Positions 3,655-5,653 of a stretch of DNA of 64,000 nt are shown one piece after another. The position numbers and the translations under genes were made by a program. The notes below the pieces were generated by a model, which saw nothing but the letters and a program-made list of their open reading frames with translations, had not been told where the DNA came from and searched no databases. The stretch is from an uncultured Pelagibacteraceae bacterium. GTDB taxonomy: Bacteria > Pseudomonadota > Alphaproteobacteria > Pelagibacterales > Pelagibacteraceae. Position 1 is the first letter of the stretch. The number at the start of each line of letters is the position of its first letter. The stretch covers positions 1-64,000 of the forward strand of contig CACALX010000002.1 of NCBI GenBank assembly GCA_902533445.1. The letters are read 5' to 3'.

Positions 3655-4983
3655 TTAACTAACTGCTTTTAAATTACCTTTTGACGATTTATCTAAAGCT
3701 TGATCTAGATCATCGATTATATCATCAATATGCTCTAAACCAATACAAAGTCTAACATATCCAGGGGTTACACCTGAGGCAGCTAATTCATCCTCATTTA
3801 ATTGACTGTGAGTAGTGGTTGCAGGGTGTATTGCTAAACTTCTAGCATCACCTATATTTGCAACGTGGTAAAACATTTTTAAAGCCTCAATGAACTTTTT
3901 GCCAGCTTCTATACCACCAGATAACTCAATACCAACTAAAGCACCATTACCATTTTTAAGATATTTTTTTGCTCGACTTGATATCTCTTCATTATGTTCA
4001 GTTGCATAAATAACTCTCTTAACTGCTTTATGATTTTTTAAGTACTCAACCACTTTTGCAGCATTATCACAGTGTTGTTTCATTCTTAAAGCAACTGTTT
4101 CAAGTCCTTGTATGACACCAAATGCATTATCTGGAGAAAGTGCCGATCCTAAATCTCTTAACAAGGTCACTCTCGCTCTCACTGCAAAAGCAACATTTGC
4201 GCCAGTTAATTCAGGCACAGCTTTACCCCAAACAACACCTCCATAACTTGCATCAGGTTCATTAAATAGTGGCTGTCTTTTTGGATCTGCTGTCCAATCA
4301 AAATTTCCACCATCTACTAGTGCACCTCCAACTACTGTTCCATGACCTGCTATATATTTTGTTAAAGAATAAACAACCACAGCAGCACCATGTTCAATTG
4401 GTTTACAAATTACAGGAGCAGCAGTGTTATCCAAGATTAATGGAATGTTATATTTTCTGCCAATATCTGAAACTTCTTTAATTGGAAAAACTCTTAAATA
4501 TGGGTTTGGTAATGTTTCTCCATAAAAAGCTCTAGTTTTATCGTCTATTGCTTTTTCAAAGTTTTTTGGATCAGACGGATCTGCATATCTTACTTCTATA
4601 CCAAGCTTACTTAAAGTATGTGTAAACAAAGAAACTGTTCCGCCATATAGATCTGTTGAACTTACTATATTGTCTCCAGCTTGAGCAACGTTTAATATTG
4701 CAAAAGTAGATGCAGTTTGACCAGAAGCTACAGTTAAACTTGCAAGACCATCTTCAAGAGCAGCTATTCTCTTTTCCAACACATCGTTAGTTGGATTCAT
4801 TATTCTTGTATAGATGTTTCCAAACTCTTTTAACGCAAATAAATTAGCTGCATGTTCAGTGTTATTAAATTGATACGAGGTTGTTCTATAAATTGGAACA
4901 GCTACTGAATTTGTAGCTGGATCACTTCTATAATCTCCACCGTGTATCGCAATAGTTTCTGGATTATTTCTTTTTGTACTCAT
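3655..4983 (-). CDS. metY: O-acetylhomoserine sulfhydrylase (PLP-dependent)
   Basis: This cytosolic enzyme of the Cys/Met metabolism PLP family makes homocysteine from O-acetylhomoserine and sulfide. The 442-residue protein is full length. The PLP lysine is Lys209 in SLTKYIAGHG, with the upstream YTRIMNPT motif (residues 58-65) and the phosphate-binding SGQT (87-90). The length and the insertion after residue 220 favour MetY over MetB or MetC. The leader carries a tandem SAM-II/SAM-V riboswitch, so expression should fall when S-adenosylmethionine is plentiful. The start is fixed by an AGGAG sequence 5 bases upstream. Confidence 0.95.
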   Translation of the reverse strand: MSTKRNNPETIAIHGGDYRSDPATNSVAVPIYRTTSYQFNNTEHAANLFALKEFGNIYTRIMNPTNDVLEKRIAALEDGLASLTVASGQTASTFAILNVAQAGDNIVSSTDLYGGTVSLFTHTLSKLGIEVRYADPSDPKNFEKAIDDKTRAFYGETLPNPYLRVFPIKEVSDIGRKYNIPLILDNTAAPVICKPIEHGAAVVVYSLTKYIAGHGTVVGGALVDGGNFDWTADPKRQPLFNEPDASYGGVVWGKAVPELTGANVAFAVRARVTLLRDLGSALSPDNAFGVIQGLETVALRMKQHCDNAAKVVEYLKNHKAVKRVIYATEHNEEISSRAKKYLKNGNGALVGIELSGGIEAGKKFIEALKMFYHVANIGDARSLAIHPATTTHSQLNEDELAASGVTPGYVRLCIGLEHIDDIIDDLDQALDKSSKGNLKAVS

Positions 4984-4988
4984 TTTTA

Positions 4989-5042
4989 CTCCTTTTTTAG
5001 TGCTTATGCTTTATGCAAGGCGCACAATACAGTTCAAATGCC
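4989..5042 (-). promoter_or_regulatory. SAM-V riboswitch before metY
   Basis: Reading the minus strand from 5042, the RNA starts GGCAUUUGAACUG and continues with UUGUGCGCC, CUUGCAUAA and finally GCACUAAAAAAGGAG. These blocks match my memory of the SAM-V aptamer from marine bacteria. UUGUGC can pair with GCAC to form the pseudoknot, whose 3' strand runs into the metY Shine-Dalgarno AGGAG at 4989-4993. Ligand binding should therefore hide the ribosome binding site and block translation. Confidence 0.87.
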
Positions 5043-5067
5043 TACCGATTTAAAATTATATGAAATT

Positions 5068-5110
5068 TCCATTTTAGCAGTTTTATGCCCGCAATAGGAT
5101 CAAATCGGCA
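5068..5110 (-). promoter_or_regulatory. SAM-II riboswitch upstream of the SAM-V element
   Basis: On the minus strand from 5110 the RNA has UGCC(G), then GAUUUGAUCCUAUUGC, then GGGCA, and ends GCUAAAAUGGA. UGCC pairs with GGCA (P1). UAUUGC and GCUAAA are the conserved SAM-II core, and UCC can pair with GGA to extend the pseudoknot. The predicted transcription start falls within a few bases of P1. This gives a SAM-II then SAM-V tandem for metY. An unambiguous terminator between the two was not seen. Confidence 0.78.
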
Positions 5111-5115
5111 ATTGA

Positions 5116-5143
5116 TAAATAGCATATTAGTTATATTTTACAA
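5116..5143 (-). promoter_or_regulatory. metY: Putative metY promoter
   Basis: On the minus strand, TTGTAA (5138-5143) and TATTTA (5116-5121) are separated by 16 bases and resemble sigma-70 -35 and -10 boxes. The predicted start near 5109 would place the SAM-II aptamer at the very 5' end of the transcript. The region is AT-rich throughout, so chance matches are easy. The agreement with the riboswitch boundary is the main support. Confidence 0.5.
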
Positions 5144-5194: not shown

Positions 5195-5653
5195 ATGACA
5201 AAATTCACAAAAAAAGATCAAGTTACATCATCTTGGTACGAGATAGACGCAAAAAATGCAGTTGTTGGAAGATTAGCAACTGTTGTATCCAAAATTATTA
5301 GAGGTAAGAATAAGACTACTTATACACCTCACATGGATGATGGAGATTTTGTTGTAGTAAAAAATATCGAACAAGCAAAATTTACTGGTAAGAAGTTTCA
5401 AAATAAAATGTACTATAGACATACAGGACATCCTGGTGGAATTAAAGTTAGTACACCAGAAAAACTTCATGAAAAAAAACCTGGAGAAACTTTAAAGCTA
5501 GCAGTTAAAAGAATGTTGCCCGGGGGTGTTTTGGGTAGAAAACAATTAACAAAATTAAAAATTTATTCTGGAAGTGAGCATCCTCATGCTGCACAAAATC
5601 CAAAAATTATTGAATTAGATAAACTAAATAATAAAAACATTGCACGAAATTAA
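5195..5653 (+). CDS. rplM: 50S ribosomal protein L13
   Basis: This large-subunit protein is made early in ribosome assembly. The 152-residue sequence shows the L13 features WYEIDAKNAVVGRLAT near residue 15, the YRHTGHPGG motif near residue 74, and KRMLPGGVLGR near residue 109. It is followed after 1 base by rpsI, the universal rplM-rpsI pair. The start at 5195 gives the normal N-terminus. Confidence 0.97.
   Translation: MTKFTKKDQVTSSWYEIDAKNAVVGRLATVVSKIIRGKNKTTYTPHMDDGDFVVVKNIEQAKFTGKKFQNKMYYRHTGHPGGIKVSTPEKLHEKKPGETLKLAVKRMLPGGVLGRKQLTKLKIYSGSEHPHAAQNPKIIELDKLNNKNIARN

Follow-up and report, generated by a model that had tools for sequence, protein, structure and literature searches.

Within the window, that is, the whole 64 kb stretch of DNA that was analysed, metY is encoded on the minus strand and is separated from the divergent gene rplM by a conserved intergenic region of 211 bases, which contains the metY leader (minus strand, 5110-4984). 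The features of the locus are as follows:

3655..4983, minus strand: metY, O-acetylhomoserine sulfhydrylase, 442 aa, start codon at 4983 (TIGR01326, 580 bits against a cut-off of 495)
4986..5052, minus strand: SAM-V aptamer, including at its 3' edge the Shine-Dalgarno sequence AAGGAG (4994-4989) of metY (Rfam RF01826, 82 bits)
5043..5051, minus strand: linker strand AAAUCGGUA, candidate anti-SAM-II strand, complementary to UGCCGAUUU at 5110-5102 (nine pairs, one of them G-U)
5052..5067, minus strand: variable AU-rich part of the linker, terminator-free (leader comparison and terminator scans)
5068..5110, minus strand: SAM-II aptamer (custom covariance model R1, E 6e-5; sub-threshold in Rfam)
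5116..5143, minus strand: candidate metY promoter (-35 TTGTAA at 5143-5138; extended -10 TGC-TATTTA at 5124-5116)
5195..5653, plus strand: rplM (ribosomal protein L13), the divergent upstream neighbour (TIGR01066, 178 bits)

Across 100 leaders, two elements upstream of the GCC of SAM-II were conserved: TTG at -34 and, at -15 to -7, an extended -10 of the form TGnTAnAAA. From this promoter, transcription is predicted to begin at the first base of SAM-II P1, which in the window would lie at about 5110. The metY promoter was not reported by a scan for strict consensus promoters.

The downstream part of the leader matched the Rfam model of SAM-V (RF01826) at 4986-5052(-), with 82 bits against a gathering score of 41 and an E-value of 5.7e-12. 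The match ends on AAGGAG at 4994-4989, which bears out the proposal of the initial annotation that SAM-V overlaps the ribosome binding site of metY. The 5' strand of its P1, AGGC (5043-5040), lies immediately 3' of the linker strand, and its helices were paired in 99.3% (P1), 100% (P2) and 99.3% (P3) of cases, with changes on both sides of P1, P2 and P3. The metY SAM-V of strain HTCC1062 binds SAM selectively and hides the ribosome binding site when SAM is bound (PMC6061858). By homology to HTCC1062, the SAM-V of the window is likely to bind SAM and mask the ribosome binding site in the same way.

Further upstream, the strand reads UGCCGAUUUGAUCCUAUUGCGGGC...CUGCUAAAAUGGA at 5110-5068(-) and carries all the conserved blocks of SAM-II in order, with GAUUU, UAUUGC and GCUAAA of the core following one another at 5106-5073(-). 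P1 is made up of GCC (5109-5107) and GGC (5089-5087), the loop GAUUUGAUCCUAUUGC spans 5106-5091, GCUAAA lies at 5078-5073, and P2a pairs UCC (5099-5097) with GGA (5070-5068). The initial annotation had proposed that this leader carries SAM aptamers of two classes, one after the other, and had named the Rfam models as the check; the check succeeded for SAM-V and failed for SAM-II, which stayed below threshold with both RF01726 (19.3 bits, cut-off 44) and RF00521 (14.9 bits, cut-off 36). The RF00521 cut-off was reached by no SAR11 match in the 147 SAR11-family genomes sampled, and the published metX SAM-II of HTCC1062 itself scored only 26.7 bits with this model, so the Rfam cut-off is not diagnostic in the SAR11 order. 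Rfam was therefore dropped as the sole judge of SAM-II, no SAR11 match, metX included, having passed RF00521, and for the same reason a SAR11-specific covariance model, R1, was built from 30 terminator-linked SAM-II elements of SAR11, none of them of the terminator-less type found at metY.

In the scan of the 64 kb window, the top match of R1 fell on the metY leader at 5065-5113(-) with 25.0 bits (E 6e-5), the next match reaching 12.2 bits, and genome-wide the metY element ranked second behind the metX leader. The model matched the same place in nearly all of the 24 terminator-less-type leaders tested (15-28 bits) and found nothing in the SAM-II-less metY leaders L120 and L127. The element recurs near-invariant and at the same position in about 100 non-redundant SAR11 metY leaders, including that of HTCC1062; in 72 clustered leaders its core was invariant, and the pairings of its H-type pseudoknot were formed in 100% (P1 and P2) and 95.8% (P2a). 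One compensatory change in P1 was found, in the mmuM leader L157. On these comparative grounds the upstream element is confirmed as a SAM-II aptamer with predicted SAM binding, and the tandem initially proposed is recovered, with SAM-V identified by Rfam and SAM-II by R1. The genome of the window also has a metX leader (L228, G000:C4:88346-88403), the SAM-II of which scored 42 bits with the SAR11 model and was not reported by the RF00521 search. No SAM-II core pattern was found in viral contigs.

To place this leader among its relatives, leaders were taken from the SAM-V and MetY searches and sorted into types. Type A, to which the window belongs, consists of SAM-II, a linker of 23-33 nt and SAM-V, and comprises 106 non-redundant leaders of metY and mmuM in Pelagibacter. 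Type B consists of SAM-II, an intrinsic terminator and SAM-V, and is represented by bhmT of HTCC1062 and, in other SAR11 genera, by metY along with further genes, while type C carries SAM-V without SAM-II (osmC of HTCC1062 and a few metY). The genome G026 is that of HTCC1062, and its SAM-V coordinates fall within the intergenic regions of that strain in PMC2704228; SAM-V alone has been listed for its metY and mmuM leaders (PMC2704228, PMC5069961). Both of these leaders (L156 and L157) were of type A. A hairpin with a U-run between the aptamers was present in 58/58 leaders of type B and in 0/106 of type A, pattern scans giving the same result; thus no intrinsic terminator separates the metY aptamers in the window or in its 105 related leaders. 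The suggestion made earlier for this DNA, that SAM-II may control completion of the transcript, is not supported in view of this absence, all the terminator-type leaders having a terminator.

Other leaders depart from these layouts. The metY leaders L120, L127 and L128 (genomes G093, G266 and G164) have no SAM-II and a degenerate SAM-V of 52-57 bits in which CACAAAA replaces CACUAAA, preceded by an ACCC...GGGU hairpin, and they possibly represent a decayed or altered switch. In genera g3 and g6, the metY leaders L116, L119, L216, L223 and L114 combine a short SAM-II P1 with a terminator, most of them also having a linker strand complementary to SAM-II, and may be intermediate between types A and B. 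Neither SAM-II nor SAM-V was recognisable upstream of the SAR11 metY genes at L098-L108, L110 and L111 (MetY 80-83% identical), so that these genes have either lost their control by SAM or had it replaced.

The type A linkers are AU-rich, with a median longest T-run of 3, and variable, but they end in AUCGGYA directly 5' of SAM-V P1. This motif is the reverse complement of UGCCGAU, which comprises the 5' strand of SAM-II P1 and the start of the ligand-binding loop. Counted back from SAM-V P1, linker positions -3 to -6 hold 1.6-1.8 bits of conservation and position -2 holds 1.3, against 0.2-1.3 at most other positions; almost all leaders have U or C at position -2, either of which pairs with G. 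The core GCCGA:UCGGY comprises five pairs, each of which forms in 70-71 of the 72 clustered leaders. In the window, the duplex of AAAUCGGUA with UGCCGAUUU has an energy of about -11.6 kcal/mol, forms in pseudoknot-free folding once the linker is transcribed, and is mutually exclusive with SAM-II. Folding of the full leaders, again without pseudoknots, predicted the linker helix at a probability above 0.5 in 62/72. The mean duplex energy was -9.6 kcal/mol in metY leaders as compared to -3.2 with mononucleotide-shuffled linkers and -2.6 in type B leaders with a long SAM-II P1. After dinucleotide shuffling, 27% of linkers reached seven pairs with three G-C against 69% observed, which is a weak control since UCGG readily reappears when linkers this short and AU-rich are shuffled.

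The linker motif was absent from those terminator-type tandems in which SAM-II P1 is long, and the strand was absent from the SAM-II-less leaders L120, L127 and L128 and the second site of L018. The linker also tracks changes in the SAM-II strand, as seen in the mmuM leader of HTCC1062 (L157, UUUACCGAUU/AAUUGGUAAA), in L216 (UGCCAAU/GUUGGCA) and in L223 (UAGCCGAUU/GAUUGGCUA), the latter two looking intermediate because they also carry a terminator. Within the 72-row alignment, no changes on both sides of the linker helix were found and the covariation score was not above that of shuffles, a test which is uninformative within metY because the SAM-II strand is invariant. The sister family (f2) gave no additional compensatory examples, since SAM-V was found there in two genomes and both leaders are of the terminator type. 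One or two mismatches to SAM-II occur in several mmuM leaders (L174, L201, L196, L197, L251 and L252). The mmuM tandems L174, L201, L251 and L252 share the conserved linker AAUCUGYA with a single SAM-II mismatch and differ in their Shine-Dalgarno context (AAGUGAGGA). Between the P1 strands, all distances from 59 to 70 nt occur, which fits RNA pairing and does not fit a helically phased DNA site. Sequence comparison thus establishes a conserved complementarity alongside two aptamers and a missing terminator, and sequestration of the SAM-II strand by the linker, as predicted from its conservation, is well supported.

We lean, with modest confidence, towards the reading that the linker of metY serves as an anti-aptamer expression platform of SAM-II and that SAM-II and SAM-V both repress at high SAM. 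SAM-II, at the predicted extreme 5' end of the mRNA, would be the first to emerge during transcription. With SAM bound, its P1 and binding loop would be locked and the linker strand AAAUCGGUA, which touches SAM-V, would be left free, while without SAM this strand would pair with UGCCGAUUU and dismantle SAM-II. The linker helix would abut SAM-V P1 and compete for its first base, A5043, for which reason the simplest interpretation is that SAM-II influences how SAM-V folds on the same molecule, at the level of translation. SAM-II would then act on the same step as SAM-V (the folding of SAM-V and translation, with a consequent effect on mRNA stability) and not on termination. From this arrangement we infer that the strands exchange, in which direction they do so and how SAM-V is affected; the route from the linker helix to a change in SAM-V is not evident from the structure, and in the bhmT tandem the linker left SAM-V binding unaltered (PMC11508383). 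We propose more tentatively that SAM-II, having neither a terminator nor a ribosome binding site of its own, may signal to SAM-V through the linker strand, with a joint effect on translation, and that this may be the usual control of metY in Pelagibacter.

The main rival is an effect on mRNA decay, in which the 5' end would be held at low SAM in a stable terminal helix, shielded from 5'-end-dependent decay, and would not be so shielded at high SAM. The conserved promoter, from which transcription would begin at the first base of SAM-II P1, agrees with it, as does the rise of both metY mRNA and protein of HTCC1062 in sulfur limitation (PMC5069961) despite the lack of a terminator. However, P1 of SAM-bound SAM-II pairs the 5' end too, and a change in mRNA could follow from translation, so we regard this explanation as unlikely. 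Slightly less likely still is that SAM-II senses SAM without a platform of its own, SAM-V alone represses and the linker complementarity is a by-product. Such a by-product would be consistent with a metY helix that shows no both-side changes and is weak in several mmuM leaders, and with the silence of SAM-II in vitro in the bhmT tandem (PMC11508383). It accounts poorly for a UCGG block that is far more conserved than the surrounding linker and is missing where SAM-II is missing or is terminator-linked with a long P1, and a functionless aptamer kept near-identical across about 100 species is unlikely in a streamlined genome.

An ordinary tandem of two mechanisms, in which SAM-II terminates transcription intrinsically and SAM-V blocks translation, is very improbable at metY of the window. 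Known SAM-II/SAM-V tandems are predicted to work in this manner (PMC9481103), and terminators are present in the bhmT tandem of HTCC1062 and in metY leaders of other SAR11 genera, but the short AU-rich linkers of 23-33 nt in the window and its 105 relatives hold no hairpin with a U-run. Most improbable of all is that the conserved strand acts as a DNA element, either an internal promoter or a protein site, and not as RNA. The AU-rich stretch upstream of it resembles a -10 box in some leaders, yet no -10 hexamer is conserved there, for which reason an internal promoter between the aptamers was rejected; moreover, the spacing to the other half varies over 59-70 nt, and the block follows the SAM-II strand at other loci.

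In the textbook view, SAM-II/SAM-V tandems control transcription first and translation second. This cannot hold at metY and mmuM of Pelagibacter, HTCC1062 included, since SAM-II is present there and the terminator is absent. The cut-offs of Rfam hide SAM-II aptamers throughout SAR11. Pelagibacter is among the most abundant marine bacteria. If linker exchange couples the aptamers, it would constitute an aptamer-to-aptamer relay between two classes that sense one ligand, in one of the most abundant genera of the sea and in the very strain for which a crystal structure of the metY SAM-V is available.

Tandems of SAM-II and SAM-V have been reported in SAR11, as the initial annotation stated, at bhmT of 'Ca. 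P. ubique' (PMC11508383, PMC9481103). The original 120 tandems were all said to carry a terminator after SAM-II, and 149 have been counted (PMC9481103). Our literature search, which did not cover the founding paper (Poiata 2009, PMC2764483), returned no account of the terminator-less layout of metY. The bhmT tandem resembles that of metY in its aptamers and their order, in the position of SAM-V over the ribosome binding site and in a linker able to pair with SAM-II, but, in contrast to metY, this linker contains an intrinsic terminator and SAM-II P1 is long. In bhmT, SAM-II is masked by the linker and responds to SAM again when antisense oligonucleotides are directed against the linker (PMC11508383). 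The anti-SAM-II segment of bhmT is located within the terminator and matches the 3' strand of SAM-II (CUAAAGCG), whereas that of metY lies in the linker and matches the 5' strand. The linker strand of metY offers a directly testable answer to the puzzle raised in PMC11508383, namely the silence of SAM-II in the full-length tandem.

The metY SAM-V of HTCC1062, known from its crystal structure (PMC6061858), concerns the same gene and aptamer, and its leader L156 has the same layout as that of the window; it was, however, studied as SAM-V alone, in 53 nt, and the available part of the report makes no mention of the upstream SAM-II and linker strand. The translational SAM-II riboswitches of Sinorhizobium metA (PMC9373788) and of metX (2QWY) likewise do without transcription termination, but unlike the proposed action at metY they work directly on the ribosome binding site, not by way of another SAM aptamer. 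Tandems for glycine and other ligands (PMC9481103) also combine a pair of aptamers for the same ligand in a single mRNA, coupled by a linker; these usually employ one aptamer class and a shared platform, whereas metY combines two classes with a mutually exclusive linker pairing.
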